From Labilibaculum euxinicum (GTDB taxonomy: Bacteria > Bacteroidota > Bacteroidia > Bacteroidales > Marinifilaceae): DNA of 53,362 nucleotides. The notes below the pieces were generated by a model. It did no database searches. It was not told the origin of the DNA and saw only the letters and a list, made by a program, of their open reading frames with translations. The stretch is taken from NCBI RefSeq assembly GCF_009795715.1, contig NZ_WTCR01000020.1, forward strand, positions 1-53,362, given 5' to 3'. Of this stretch, positions 783 to 45,617 are shown piece by piece (position 1 is the stretch's first letter; each line of letters starts with the position of its first letter). Made by a program: the position numbers and the translations under genes.

Positions 783-965
783 GCTTTGCTAAGCATCATT
801 TTCATTTCTTCAATCATTTATATTTCATGCTTTAGCAGTTCGAAAACAAATACTGAAACTATGGAAAATAATATTTCATAATAACCAAATACTGTTTCGT
901 GCATTTTGCAACAATAAAGTATTATTTTTGAAGTTTATTTTAAGTAACGAACAGGTGTAACGCCC

Positions 966-1169
966 CTGTAAAAAGTGCTACACACAAAGGCATGATTATT
1001 GATAATAGTAAGTTCTCCTGAAAAATTCAGGACAAGCCATATAACAACTAAAAAACAAATTATAAACATATGAAACGACCCGACGAAAAGTGTTACACAC
1101 AGGAGAATGAGTGTAATTTGGGAGTTCCATATGGCAACTAAAAAACAAATTATAAACATATGAAACGGA
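966..1169 (+). repeat. Start-codon leader repeat, locus A (one full unit plus a diverged unit)
   Basis: The full unit runs 1070-1159 (90 bp). It begins with ATGAAACG and is followed by the true gene start ATGAAACG at 1160. A more diverged unit lies upstream (about 966-1069) and ends at the ATG at 1070. Two hairpins are visible in the full unit: TTACAC (1093-1098) with GTGTAA (1111-1116), enclosing a loop with CAGGAGAATGA, and GTTCCATATG (1124-1133) with CATATGAAAC (1157-1166, one mismatch). The second stem holds the start codon. The A-rich linker between its arms would carry the ribosome-binding region. Related units occur at 15304-15410 and 18601-18890. Confidence 0.75.
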
Positions 1170-1525
1170 TCACATTATTTTTTTTATGCATTGCTGCAGC
1201 AGCACTTTTCTCAACCTCTTGTTCTGAAGAAGAAACTCACCCCAGTTTTGATGAGTCATTAATTATCGGCAAATGGAAAAGCGGGACTTTGTTCGAAAGA
1301 TACGACTCTGACAAATCGGGTGCTACCTGGGATACTGCCGATGATGTTAAGGAATCAGAAGCTCAGAAATTTACCTGGACAATAACAAAAGATCAGCTGG
1401 AGCAGATCCACATTATCGAAAATGGCGGTAACGTTCCTAAAGTATACACCATTACGAATTTAACGGCATCATCATTAGAGTACGAAGACGCTTACGGAAA
1501 AACAAAATCATTTAGCAAACAATAG
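1160..1525 (+). CDS. Small lipocalin-like lipoprotein
   Basis: This 121-residue protein has a lipoprotein signal peptide (residues 1-20) with lipidation Cys21 in the context STSC, so it is probably membrane anchored. The mature part has the pattern of small Bacteroidota lipocalin-like proteins: an early IIGKWKSG strand, a central W/T-rich stretch and a closing strand ending YGKTKSFSKQ. The ligand is unknown. The start codon is the last element of the upstream leader repeat, which makes translation control likely. The AsmA-like gene follows after only 4 bp, so the two are almost certainly one operon. The lipoprotein call is firm; the lipocalin assignment is moderate. Confidence 0.8.
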   Translation: MKRITLFFLCIAAAALFSTSCSEEETHPSFDESLIIGKWKSGTLFERYDSDKSGATWDTADDVKESEAQKFTWTITKDQLEQIHIIENGGNVPKVYTITNLTASSLEYEDAYGKTKSFSKQ

Positions 1526-14625: not shown

Positions 14626-15312
14626 CTAAACCACCAGACGATAGCCAACACCGTGCACGGTTAGTATTATTTTTGCATGATTTGGATCCTGCTCAATCTT
14701 ATGCCTTAGCTTCAATATAAAATTATCAATGGTTCGGGATGTTGGCTGATAATCCGTTCCCCAGATATGATCCAAAAGATCATCACGACTAACAATTGTA
14801 TTCTTGTTGTCCCACAAATAGTTTAATATCTCAACTTCTTTGTGCGACATTTTCACTTCCTGCTGATCGACAAATCCTTCGAAAGAAGAAAAATTGATTG
14901 ATAATTTTCCGATTTCAACTGAATGATTAGCTTTGCTTTCTGTCCTGTTTTCGGTACGCCTTAACACTGCACGTATTCGTGCCAATAATTCGCGCAAGCT
15001 AAATGGTTTGGTTATGTAATCATCAGCGCCAAACTCCAATCCTAAAACTTTATCGATCTCCTCGCCTCTTGCTGTCAGCAGAATTATTGGAGTCGCAATT
15101 CCTTTTTTTCGGACTTGTTTACAAATATCAAATCCCGAAATTTTTGGAAGCATTACATCCAAAAGCACCAGAGAGTATTCATTTCCTAAGATTTTATCCA
15201 GTCCAATTTCGCCATCATCGGCAACATCAACCTGATATCCCTCAAACTCCATATTATCTTTCAATCCCATTAACATGCCGGGCTCGTCTTCCACAATTAA
15301 TATTGGTTTCAT
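14626..15312 (-). CDS. OmpR-family response regulator
   Basis: This 228-residue regulator has acidic pocket VEDE (8-10), phospho-acceptor Asp52 (LLDVMLPK), Thr in LLTARG and Lys in YITKPF. A winged-helix domain (about residues 130-228) ends LTVHGVGYRLVV. It pairs with the kinase that ends 117 bp upstream on the same strand. The space between the two genes is filled by a leader-repeat unit that ends on this gene's ATG (AUGAAACC). The regulator may therefore be translated under separate control from its kinase, which is unusual for such pairs. Confidence 0.92.
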   Translation of the reverse strand: MKPILIVEDEPGMLMGLKDNMEFEGYQVDVADDGEIGLDKILGNEYSLVLLDVMLPKISGFDICKQVRKKGIATPIILLTARGEEIDKVLGLEFGADDYITKPFSLRELLARIRAVLRRTENRTESKANHSVEIGKLSINFSSFEGFVDQQEVKMSHKEVEILNYLWDNKNTIVSRDDLLDHIWGTDYQPTSRTIDNFILKLRHKIEQDPNHAKIILTVHGVGYRLVV

Positions 15313-15410
15313 CTGTTTATAATTTTAAGTTTTTGTCAGATGAAACTTACCATATAATCATCTCCCTGTGTGTAGAAAGCTTTATACATGGACGTTTCAT
15401 GTGTTTACAA
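15304..15410 (-). repeat. Start-codon leader repeat, locus B
   Basis: One unit lies between the kinase and regulator genes. Read on the minus strand it starts at an ATGAAACG (15400) and ends 88 bp later on the regulator start ATGAAACC (15312). The stem holding the start codon is GTTTCATCTG with CAGATGAAAC (plus-strand arms 15306-15315 and 15337-15346), a perfect 10 bp. Compared with loci A and C, both sides of one pair have changed (CATATG to CATCTG/CAGATG), which preserves pairing. The loop motif ACACACAGGGAGATGAT is kept. Confidence 0.72.
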
Positions 15411-17102: not shown

Positions 17103-18176
17103 TTAATTATCAGCACACTTAACAACATCTATTTTCCCTTTAAAGTACTTGTCTTTTAATCTCAGCGAAACATTTACCAAGGCGATTAATACCGGCACTT
17201 CAACCAGTGGCCCAATAACTGCGGCAAATGCAACACCCGAATTGATACCAAAAACGGCAATGGCTACTGCGATGGCCAATTCAAAATTGTTACTGGCTGC
17301 TGTAAAAGATAAACTAGCTGTTTTGGCATATCCTGCTTTAAATTTCTTTCCCATAAAGAAGGAAATTACGAACATGATCACAAAATAAATGACCAAAGGA
17401 ATCGCTATTCGAACCACATCAAATGGCAACTGAACAATGTATTCTCCTTTTAACGAGAACATCACAAAAATGGTAAACAGCAAGGCAAATAAGGTAAGAG
17501 GGCTTATTTTAGGTATAAATTTCTTCTGATACCAATCCTTGCCTTTTGCTTTAATTCCGAAATATCGGGTAATCATTCCGGCAAAAAATGGAATTCCCAG
17601 ATAAATCATTACGCTTTCTGCGATATCTCCCATGGAAACATCAACTACAGAACCTTGTAATCCAAAATATCCGGGCAGCACAGTGATAAATACATAGGCA
17701 TAAACAGAGAAAAACAATACCTGAAAGATGCTGTTAAAAGCTACTAAACCCGCGGCATATTCAGGATCTCCTTTTGCCAAATCATTCCAAACAATTACCA
17801 TCGCAATACATCTGGCCAAACCAATCATAATTAATCCTGTCATGTATTCTGGATAATCCTGAAGAAAAATAATAGCCAAAGCAAACATCAAAGTGGGTCC
17901 CAAGATCCAATTCTGCACTAAAGAGAGAATCAATATCTTCCGGTTTTTGAAAACATCCTTTAGTTCTTCATATTTTACTTTTGCAAGTGGTGGATACATC
18001 ATGATCACCAATCCGATGGCAATTGGAACATTCGTGGTTCCAACCGATAATTTGTTCCAAAATCCAGACATGGCAGGAAAAAAATACCCCATTCCAACAC
18101 CAATTGCCATCGCCGCAAATATCCATACGGTAAGATATCTGTCTAAAAACGATAATTTCTTATTTAAAGCTCCCAT
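17103..18176 (-). CDS. acr3: ACR3-family arsenite efflux permease
   Basis: This 357-residue membrane protein with about ten helices exports arsenite across the inner membrane using the proton motive force. Family marks are [27 protein letters not shown] at the N terminus and [18 protein letters not shown], which holds the conserved functional cysteine. Other marks are [19 protein letters not shown] and [12 protein letters not shown]. Its start overlaps the end of arsC by 17 bp, so the two are translationally coupled. It is the last gene of the ars operon and is followed by a strong terminator. Confidence 0.95.
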
Positions 18177-18603
18177 GTTTTATTTTTTTTAGGATGTATT
18201 CCTCATTAAATTTTGCGAAATCCCTGCGGATTTCATCACGTACTCTTCTAAATACATTGAAAATTTCTTCTTCAGTTCCCTCGGCATAAGCCGGATCGTC
18301 GAATCCAATGTGTAACCGGGTTCCAACTGGTCCAGTAAATGCAGGACAAGCATCTTTTGCTCCACCACACACTGAGATTAAAAAATCAACTCCATCTTTC
18401 AAGAATTCATCGACCATTTTTGGGCGAAATGAGCTAATATCAACTCCAATTTCAGCCATAGCTTTCACTGCCAAAGGATGTACCCGATCTGCAATTTTAG
18501 TACCTGCCGAAACAACCTCCAATTCAGGGTTAATTTCACGTAAAATTGCTTCACCCATTTGGCTTCTGCATGAATTTCCGGTACACAAAACCAATACTTT
18601 CAT
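18160..18603 (-). CDS. arsC: Arsenate reductase, low-molecular-weight phosphatase type
   Basis: This 147-residue enzyme reduces arsenate to arsenite with thioredoxin. It has the P-loop [14 protein letters not shown] with Cys7-x5-Arg13, and the two further resolving cysteines in [11 protein letters not shown], which match the triple-cysteine relay of the B. subtilis-type ArsC. The length is normal. The end overlaps acr3 by 17 bp. Upstream are three leader-repeat units, the last of which ends on this ATG, and then arsR, so arsC and acr3 may be controlled at translation as well as by ArsR. Confidence 0.95.
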
Positions 18604-18890
18604 ATGCTTATAATTTGTTTTTTAATTGTCATATGGAACTTACCATGCTGAGACAATCATCTCTCTGTGTGTCAAAATCACTTTGGCATGAACGTTTCAT
18701 ATGCTTATAATTTGTTTTTTAATTGTCATATGGAACTTACCATGCTGAGACAATCATCTCTCTGTGTGTCAAAATCACTTTGGCATGAACGTTTCATATG
18801 CTTATAATTTGTTTTTTAATTGTCATATGCAACTTCCAAGTTACGCTCACTCTCCTGCGAGCAACTCTTTTATAAAGTCGTTTCATATTT
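18601..18890 (-). repeat. Start-codon leader repeat, locus C (three tandem units)
   Basis: Read on the minus strand, ATGAAA(CG) occurs at 18886, 18797, 18700 and finally at the arsC start 18603, giving units of 89, 97 and 97 bp. The two 97-bp units are identical. Each unit holds a hairpin of the form GTTCCATATG / CATATGAAAC around the ATG. Each also holds a second stem with the loop CACAGAGAGATGAT (GACA/TGTC in the 97-bp units; GCTC/GAGC with GTT/AAC in the 89-bp unit). The 89-bp unit is diverged but keeps pairing. The whole array lies inside the ars operon. Positions 18891-18973 add nothing else recognisable. Confidence 0.8.
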
Positions 18891-18973
18891 CTAACTAGAG
18901 ATGCGAAAACTTAGATATGAGTGCATCTCAGTATTCTGTCTGCTCTTTTCCCATTCTGATTTATATTACTTAT

Positions 18974-19303
18974 TTATGAACAATTCTTTTCTTCTTCAGG
19001 AGTTATTTCCTCCAAAAGATCACCAAATAATTGCTTCATTTTTTCAATCCCTTTTTTGTTCAAACAATACTTGATTTTTAAGCCTTCTACTTCTCCCTTT
19101 ATTAAACCGGCATGTTTTAAGTCTTTTAAATGCTGAGAAACAGTAGTTCTGCTCAGCGGTAGAAAGTCAGAAATATCACCTGAGATACAAGTTGGTGTTG
19201 CAGCTAAAAACTGCAGAATTGCAATTCGTGCCGGATGTGACATTACTTTTGCAATTGCAGCTATTTCTTGTTGGCCTTTTTCGAATAAATCTAATTTCCT
19301 CAT
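18974..19303 (-). CDS. arsR: ArsR-family arsenic-responsive repressor
   Basis: This 109-residue winged-helix repressor uses the ATG at 19303; the longer reading would need a TTG start. It has the family core AKVMSHPARIAILQFLA, the recognition helix LSRTTVSQHLKDLKHAGLI and the wing GEVEGLKIKYCLN. Cysteines that could bind As(III) are at TCISGD, in the wing (YCLN) and at the C terminus (KNCS). The classical CVCDL helix motif is missing, as is usual for the Bacteroidota type. It is the first gene of the ars operon, with a palindrome and a -7 box upstream. Confidence 0.92.
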   Translation of the reverse strand: MRKLDLFEKGQQEIAAIAKVMSHPARIAILQFLAATPTCISGDISDFLPLSRTTVSQHLKDLKHAGLIKGEVEGLKIKYCLNKKGIEKMKQLFGDLLEEITPEEEKNCS

Positions 19304-19342
19304 AGTTTTAACAAATATCAATCCTCCTTATTTCTAATGACG

Positions 19343-37430: not shown

Positions 37431-37586
37431 GAGGATGTCCAAAAAGCATTGTTCTATTGTCATTCTGATCCCGATGAATCGGGACGAAGAATCTTTCACT
37501 TAGAAAAACAGATGTTTCGTTCCGATAGCCATCGGGATCGCTCAACATGACAATCCATTACAAAATATTCCCTTTTGGACACCCTC
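37431..37586. mobile_element. MITE-like element, 156 bp
   Basis: Terminal inverted repeats are GAGGATGTCCAAAA (37431-37444) and TTTTGGACACCCTC (37573-37586). Inside are GTCATTCTGA and GAAGAATCTTTCAC, sequence typical of a repeat family widespread in Bacteroidota, and inner hairpins (CCCGATGAATCGGG). No coding sequence. No clear target-site duplication. A shorter relative lies at 45469-45600 and a stem built from the ends alone lies at 21115-21142. Confidence 0.8.
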
Positions 37587-37736
37587 TTTAATTTATTAAT
37601 GTCAGCTTATATGAAATAAACCACAACATACAATATTGCCTTCTGACATTTTGAGATTATCATAAAATTTCGTAATTTAGATGGAACTATCCAAATTGGG
37701 TATAAATCCAATGATTTTGATGATAAAAAAATTGCC

Positions 37737-45460: not shown

Positions 45461-45468
45461 AATCATTA

Positions 45469-45600
45469 GAGGGTGTCCAAAAAAGTATCATTCTATTGTC
45501 ATTCTGAGCTGGCCGAAGAATCTTTCACTTTGAAAAACGGATGTTTCGACTTTGCCCAATATGACAATTCAATACAAATAATTCCTTTTTGGACACCCTC
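45469..45600. mobile_element. MITE-like element, 132 bp, inside the metal operon
   Basis: The left end GAGGGTGTCCAAAA (45469) and right end TTTTGGACACCCTC (45587-45600) are perfect inverted repeats. Interior shared with the element at 37431: GTCATTCTGA, GAAGAATCTTTCAC and ATGACAATTC. It begins 9 bp after the stop codon of the first DUF4625 gene and ends 17 bp before the second, splitting them. Its ends can fold into a stem like the terminator at 21115, so it may reduce read-through into the second gene. Confidence 0.8.
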
Positions 45601-45617
45601 TCTAATATAAATCTGGC

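Follow-up and report, generated by a model that had tools for sequence, protein, structure and literature searches.

A small mobile repeat on start codons of Bacteroidota that probably uses the translation start as insertion target

Three genes in the analysed window, a stretch of 53,362 nucleotides from Labilibaculum euxinicum, are preceded by one to three copies of a repeat unit of about 88-125 nt that ends exactly on their start codons. The unit is mobile because identical units are found at separate loci of one genome and because orthologous sites without a unit exist in related species. It is likely, in our view, to be a small mobile DNA element of Bacteroidota that is non-autonomous and targets translation starts for insertion. 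According to this explanation, the element would insert at T-ATGAA(A), which in practice would mostly mean at start codons. Read from 5' to 3' it would begin with an ATG, either original to the target or copied from it, that is followed by AAAC. The imperfect hairpin HP1 would come next, then an internal CATNNG and, after an A-rich stretch, CNNATG at the right end. This CNNATG would become the start codon of the gene and pair with CATNNG to form a second hairpin, HP2, which thus contains the start codon. The element would be moved in single-stranded form by an enzyme supplied in trans, with the lagging-strand template as its destination, and insertions inside genes would be purged. CATNNG may serve as its guide by pairing with the site of cleavage or joining. 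A consensus initiation region at the right end would keep the start codon, and the left ATGA an overlapping upstream stop codon, so that insertion would be tolerated.

Units in the window and their predicted hairpins

The units of the window, their putative guide sequences, and the genes behind them are the following:

955..1069, plus strand: degenerate unit of about 115 nt with the left end GTGTAACG, upstream partner in the pair at the lipoprotein gene (nhmmer E 2.8e-12)
1070..1159, plus strand: 90-nt unit with its right end on the lipoprotein ATG (1160) (sequence, nhmmer)
1128..1133, plus strand: internal CATATG, able to pair with 1157-1162 (CATATG including the start codon) (sequence and family covariation)
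1160..1525, plus strand: lipoprotein gene, 121 aa, behind its unit pair
14626..15312, minus strand: response-regulator gene, 228 aa, behind one unit
15313..15400, minus strand: 88-nt unit with its right end on the response-regulator ATG (15312) (sequence, nhmmer)
15337..15342, minus strand: internal CATCTG, putative partner of 15310-15315 (CAGATG including the start codon) (sequence and family covariation)
18160..18603, minus strand: gene of an ArsC-like protein, 147 aa, behind three units
18604..18700, minus strand: arsC unit 1, 97 nt, with its right end on the arsC ATG (18603) (sequence, nhmmer)
18630..18635, minus strand: internal CATATG in arsC unit 1, putative partner of 18601-18606 (CATATG including the start codon) (sequence and covariation)
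18701..18797, minus strand: arsC unit 2, 97 nt, identical to arsC unit 1 (sequence, nhmmer)
18798..18886, minus strand: arsC unit 3, 89 nt, of another subtype (ATGAAACGACTTTATAAAAGAG...) and most distant from arsC (sequence, nhmmer)

The initial annotation had placed units before these three genes, with three at arsC, two of them identical, and had let every unit end at an ATG, either that of the following unit or that of the gene itself. All of this was found again when the sequence was re-read, and the identical units are those closest to arsC. The left end, given as ATGAAAC, is present in many units, but some copies have TTG, GTG, or ATA there, and the three units at arsC span 18604-18886 and not 18601-18890. 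The upstream unit at the lipoprotein gene has the left end GTGTAACG where ATGAAACG is expected and bears an extra internal hairpin (CTCCTGAAAAATTCAGGAC). The pair CATCTG/CAGATG at the response-regulator gene is a compensatory variant of CATATG/CATATG. At 17103-19321 (minus strand) there are consecutive genes which we take to encode ArsR-like, ArsC-like, and ACR3/ArsB-like proteins, and only arsC carries units in this row.

The units of the window belong to a large family. In the own genome, 34 sites match AAAAAACAAATTATAARCATATGAAA, the pattern of the right end, when up to three mismatches are allowed, and none match its backward control. A BLAST search of this genome with the two-unit stretch at arsC gave 44 matches at E<=1. 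Iterated nhmmer found 50 units in 38 segments, so that at least 50 are present, and a sequence-only model gave at least 70 matches.

The variable bases of HP2 are paired in 250 of 280 units, and shuffles reached at most 206. In an alignment of 40 diverse units (A3), 96.3% of the HP2 cells are paired, one column pair being AU in 23, CG in eight, and GC in five units, and variants such as CATCCG/CGGATG and CATACG/CGTATG appear in distant genomes. The base helix of HP1 is 99.2% paired in the same alignment and hardly varies, and 66.5% of the cells are paired in the upper helix. The real arms of HP1 gave -9.83 kcal/mol versus -6.53 +/- 0.35 for swapped arms (51 rows; lowest of 200 swapped sets -7.51), in a set that was chosen by a regular expression and in which several rows, kept in, are probably not units. 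RNAalifold predicted no pair in the first alignment (A1). Folded singly, three of ten units had at most four of 200 shuffles that were as good, and most units were no better than shuffles. Covariation of the predicted HP2 pairs and co-evolution of the arms of the putative HP1 are shown. Some units, among them those in L008, L012, L029, and L040, have an extra hairpin (CCCGAAAGCTTTCGGG or CTCCCGAAACAAGTTCGGGACAGGC) between HP1 and HP2.

Mobility, preference for start codons, and the initiation region

The upstream regions of 13 genes were compared between the own genome and up to five congeners. A fourteenth gene (C22:391220, L141-L145) remained unaligned and was left out, as was the genome G008 (13 matches), which resembles G007. 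The comparison comprises 69 ortholog rows, namely 13 of the own genome, picked for having a unit, and 56 of congeners, one of which is a second gene copy in G004. No unit at all is present in 21 of the 56 congener rows. At rpiB, G002 has TTTTGAAAAATTACAAAT directly joined to ATGAAAACACTA, and in G005 and G007 the identical 18 bases are followed by a unit and then by ATGAAAACACTA. The gene at C36:321025 is empty in G005 and G004 (ATTGCAACAGAACAATTGAGTT directly before ATGAAAGAAAT) and filled in the own genome, G007, and G002, which have the identical 22 bases, a unit, and then ATGAAAGAAATC. The 22-base leaders in G004 differ from those of filled relatives by one base at the HdrA gene and by two at the TolC gene. 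Because some leaders of empty sites are identical or nearly identical up to the ATG, the insertion point lies exactly at the start codon. ATG(AA) is present on either side of the unit, which leaves room for a target duplication of 3-5 nt, and any duplication longer than ATG(AA) is excluded.

The number of units at one start codon varies among species, as the counts per locus in related genomes revealed. For example, the response-regulator site (15312) is empty in G005, G007, and G003, and holds one degenerate unit in G004 and two units in G002. Judged by eye, units of different subtypes are found at one start codon in different species. More than one left and right flank was found for 13 of 243 distinct units. 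Among the 12 groups of repeated units that were examined, five represent separate loci in one genome, five a single locus with tandem copies, and two different genomes. One identical pair at separate loci of the own genome is that at C22:7401 and C37:332481. The repeat had been called mobile or duplicating at the outset, and both terms hold, the former through the empty orthologous sites and the identical units at separate loci, the latter through the tandem arrays, which reach four units. An initiation-region consensus that is merely shared within the genus, without any unit, is ruled out by the 97-nt identity at separate loci, the exact empty sites, and the tandem copies.

The left end also meets a gene in some cases. 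At 15 of 165 distinct left junctions, an upstream frame of at least 80 codons stops in the TGA of ATGA, and some of these junctions are orthologous. Since the left end of the unit begins with ATGA, the upstream stop codon is intact after insertion.

The units have a preference for start codons. In the own genome, 34 of 39 array ends lie on starts of ORFs of at least 118 codons, and five lie on ORFs of 4-44 codons. The genes at these ends, which judged by their N-termini are presumably arsC, rpiB, and those of a dUTPase, a UDP-glucose dehydrogenase, an HdrA-like protein, a LytTR regulator, and a TolC-like protein, are functionally unrelated, as the initial annotation had maintained. In G004, 41 of 49 terminal sites are on an ORF start and 44 of 49 have ATGAA; these sites come from 40 regions, and five of the 60 matches in this genome lie outside them. 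Over the pooled loci, 190 of 210 ends are on ORF starts and 206 of 210 have ATGAA, the ATGAA counts being inflated by L190-L297, which were picked by a pattern ending in CATATGAA. Among 311 roughly called genes of two genomes, 108 begin with ATGAA.

How much of this preference lies in the target sequence can be estimated from native sites. The left flank of the units has T at -1 in 84% of 178 cases versus 36% of 113 native ATGAAA starts, and the A-rich positions -11 to -13 are alike in both. Among first-in-array units, T precedes the site at -1 in 140 of 163 with the putative guide AT and in 10 of 21 with CT or GT. Outside of units, ATGAAA is found at 113 starts, at 229-231 intergenic sites, and at 995-996 sites inside ORFs. 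The share of starts among the non-coding ATGAAA sites is 0.33 and rises to 0.60 with the flank profile; that observed for units is 0.84-0.90. Flank sequence and a probable loss of units from coding regions explain much, but not all, of the preference for starts. Of the 210 sites in their empty form, 40 lie within a six-frame open stretch of at least 25 codons on both sides, such stretches not being resolved into real genes. One unit (L021) sits on ATGAAAGGC of an apparent terminator hairpin, with its empty site in an open frame of the opposite strand, and is a rare non-start insertion.

What the element brings to the gene is a leader. In 263 distinct units, A is present at -6 in 95%, at -11 in 94%, at -12 in 97%, and at -13 in 92%, and the right 25 nt of the units resemble native leaders. 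According to PMC6847099, A at -3, -6, -12, and -13 are positive determinants of initiation in F. johnsoniae. As the base composition shows, the 3' end of the unit mimics the Bacteroidota initiation region, which it supplies to the gene behind. At -3 the 263 units have C in 95%, versus A in 51% of the native ATGAAA starts. Because pairing with CATNNG demands this C, we infer that a constraint of mobility overrides initiation at -3.

It could be argued that the unit is a cis-regulatory RNA, a mobile riboregulator that is retained since HP1 and HP2 would control translation of the gene. Its location on the start codon, the pairing of the start codon with CATNNG, and the co-evolution of the HP1 arms across the phylum are in line with this. 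However, the genes behind the units are unrelated in function, many of their orthologs do without a unit, HP2 is a 6-bp stem with a long A-rich loop and a weak fold, and the C at -3 is unexpected under selection for initiation. In addition, covariation would look alike for RNA and for single-stranded DNA. We therefore consider a riboregulator unlikely. The translation-control cassette that the initial annotation suspected is at most a possibility: the unit carries an initiation region of its own, but the frame that opens at the 5' ATG is not conserved, and C is not the optimal base at -3. Far less probable still is an attenuator in the form of a leader peptide or upstream ORF starting at the 5' ATG. 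Many units begin with ATGAAACG, which translates as MKRPCQSDFDTQGDD.., but the ORFs range from 4 to 62 codons, frame shifts occur among copies, and some copies start with TTG, GTG, or ATA. Thus, a conserved leader peptide at the 5' ATG was rejected because the frames are not conserved.

Distribution, strand orientation, and the search for the mobilising enzyme

The mobile element that we favour is widespread. Six of eight Labilibaculum congeners have at least 63-76 matches each, the fragmented genome G001 at least 10, and the 63% complete G006 at least 26. With the sequence-only model, unit matches were found in at least 27 of 59 genomes, the own genome included. A covariance-model search of Bacteroidota genomes, as suggested in the initial annotation, revealed units across the order and in the sampled phylum. 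With the structured model (R2) at least 89 of 295 genomes of the order, own included, have units, the unit counts being those of the best 13 or fewer candidates per genome. In the phylum sample units were found in 11 of 395 genomes at E<=1e-5, again with the own genome included, two of them outside the class. The unit family extends to other orders. Named hosts among the matches listed are Marinifilum, Plebeiobacterium, Saccharicrinis, Carboxylicivirga, and a Prevotella MAG. The 10 distant copies examined have the layout ATGAAA, hairpin, TTCCATNNG (TTACAT in one of them), A-rich stretch, and NNNATGAA, and 23 of 27 loci (L326-L352) match a regular expression of this layout. The viral contigs of IMG/VR contain no match to one strict unit pattern. 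Rfam has no family that matches the units at its gathering score, the only hit being a tRNA elsewhere in L455, and there are eight sub-threshold matches with up to E 5. A literature search, with subscription journals outside its reach, returned no description of an element that lands on start codons, and we could not find an earlier description of this mode of jumping.

The arrays are not randomly oriented. Their coding strand is on the lagging-strand template, co-directional with replication, in 89 of 124 cases where about half would be expected, compared to 156 of 311 sampled genes and 56 of 108 ATGAA genes (Fisher P 4e-5 and 0.003). The arrays are those of the one-contig genomes G004 (54 from 60 matches) and G007 (70 from 78), which share some sites; tandems were merged by hand, and replichores were taken from the GC skew of 20 sampled stretches per genome. 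This bias towards the lagging-strand template suggests that a single-stranded intermediate takes part in the movement. A bottom-strand model, which predicts head-on orientation, was discarded as the opposite bias is seen.

Hairpin, guide-like pairing, lagging-strand bias, and the lack of a duplication beyond ATG(AA) would all fit a REP- or IS200-IS605-type element, for whose movement a Y1 (HUH) transposase would cut single DNA strands beside TATG or TTCAT. The Y1 domain PF01797 is present in 39 of 59 genomes and, at E<=1e-10, in 174 of 295 genomes of the order. At this threshold, it was scored in 15 of 16 genomes with at least 10 units versus 159 of 279 others, and it is found in 38 of 47 genomes with at least three units versus 136 of 248 others, although genome size confounds both comparisons. 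Matches are present in all nine Labilibaculum genomes, 2-10 in each. However, nine of the 47 genomes with at least three units have no Y1 match, and none of the Y1 loci examined, which include six regions of the own genome and 14 of congeners, is flanked by units on either side at once. Only a few Y1 loci (L162/L170, L166, L439, L444) have a unit at a distance of up to about 1.2 kb, and by eye 18 Y1 flanks contain other palindromes. A single Y1 match is present in 12 unit-bearing genomes; the proteins of seven of them have a place in a Y1 tree, in which 21 of 51 Y1 proteins are missing, and these seven belong to scattered subfamilies. Moreover, if AA is needed downstream of the cut, this departs from the usual rule of IS200/IS605 elements. 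The co-occurrence of Y1 and units is real yet not specific, and we remain doubtful of this reading. The absence of two-sided flanking at the examined Y1 loci, together with the strict-pattern search of IMG/VR and the Rfam search at cut-off, also speaks against the units being chance fragments of a single known IS or phage.

An integron-like cassette, with HP1 as an attC-like folded site for an IntI-like tyrosine recombinase, seems very improbable to us. The AAC..GTT base of HP1 resembles attC R boxes, and IntI-like recombinases are present in 48 of 89 unit genomes versus 52 of 206 others (A4, E<=1e-70). But the junctions are at ATG and not at a GTT box, and the recombinase was rejected as mobiliser because at this threshold it is missing in 15 of 31 genomes with at least five units. 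At the TIGR02249 cut-off an integron integrase was found in one of 59 genomes (G041), which itself has no unit match. An IntI-like tyrosine recombinase with an N-terminal WSQTKKCWW domain is encoded at L306:2634-3713 with relatives in L307-L323; several Labilibaculum genomes have a similar locus, and L. filiforme has extra copies.

An autonomous copy would carry a gene between its halves. The profile of the left half has 15 rows at E<=1e-4 that are not followed by a right half, none with a long insert, in loci that were mostly chosen around whole units; by eye these rows are short variants. Neither the enzyme nor a parent element was found among the loci searched, mostly taken around whole units.

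The small mobile element landing on start codons may possibly be a new kind of mobile element, although we put this forward only tentatively: single-stranded, recognised by pairing of the start codon, with the translation start as attachment site, distributed phylum-wide, and swapping the leaders of unrelated genes without loss of frame, so that it would rewire initiation genome-wide. If so, insertion would not carry its usual cost, since the element would land on a start codon and restore a functional one. Orthologs in otherwise similar genomes would then offer natural, repeated swaps of 5' leaders, by which the Bacteroidota mode of initiation, without Shine-Dalgarno sequences, becomes testable. 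There would also be consequences for the annotation of start codons, and some enzyme that moves the element must exist.

Comparison with known repeats and mobile elements

The units are, like REP/REPIN sequences moved by RAYT (TnpA_REP), short, present in many copies, hairpin-forming, and biased to the lagging strand. They differ from them by their length of 88-125 nt, by a helix that holds the start codon, and by their location on start codons. In the REP/RAYT system the RAYT/Y1 gene is flanked by the repeat, whereas no such gene was found with units on both sides, and by eye neither the A3 consensus nor the units examined have the tetranucleotide GT[AG]G at the hairpin foot. Elsewhere in the window, two direct repeats of 351 bp at 163-849 contain the palindrome GTTTGGCTTTAGCCAACTGA. 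In G004 and G007 (L177, L182), a Y1/RAYT gene (MSWVRVYVHMVFSTK...) is flanked by a similar palindrome, and the repeats look like a REPIN of that RAYT.

IS200/IS605 elements insert beside a fixed short target without duplicating it. The target of the units is T-ATGAA, and ATG(AA) on either side would allow for a duplication of 3-5 nt. In these elements a guide pairs with the cleavage site; in the units CATNNG and CNNATG covary, and CATNNG may be such a guide. IS608 and ISDra2 target the lagging-strand template according to PMC6006769.

The palindromic repeats with CGTC, known from Bacteroidetes and also without a transposase of their own, have stems of 8-9 bp and loops of 4-5 nt according to PMC3733652, whereas the hairpin of the units is long and imperfect. 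Among 263 distinct units, mostly from Labilibaculum, 190 have CGTC at the foot of their hairpin, but only 15 of the 40 diverse units have it. Membership of the units in this REP family was rejected, as many diverse units lack the tag and the hairpin is not a short perfect palindrome. Some CGTC repeats at the N-termini of annotated ORFs are ascribed to mis-called starts there, and the term 'start codon' does not appear in that paper.

With MITEs and PATEs the units would have in common that they are non-autonomous, dispersed, and moved in trans; they differ by the lack of a parent element in the loci searched and by the unusual target. Two similar copies 8 kb apart in the window (37441-37595 and 45468-45609), with inverted ends of the AGAGGGTGTCC type, are MITE-like. 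Integron cassettes (attC) share the imperfect hairpin and the tandem arrays, but the units have no cassette ORF, lie at scattered sites, join at ATG, and come with no consistent integrase. Rickettsia palindromic elements are small repeats that are tolerated by genes and inserted within ORFs. The units are tolerated as well, but they replace the leader and the start codon instead of entering ORFs. These Rickettsia elements are also named in PMC3733652. Altogether, the hairpin and the strand bias are common to the units and to REP/IS200-type elements, whereas the target, the pairing with the start codon, and the replacement of the leader are not.
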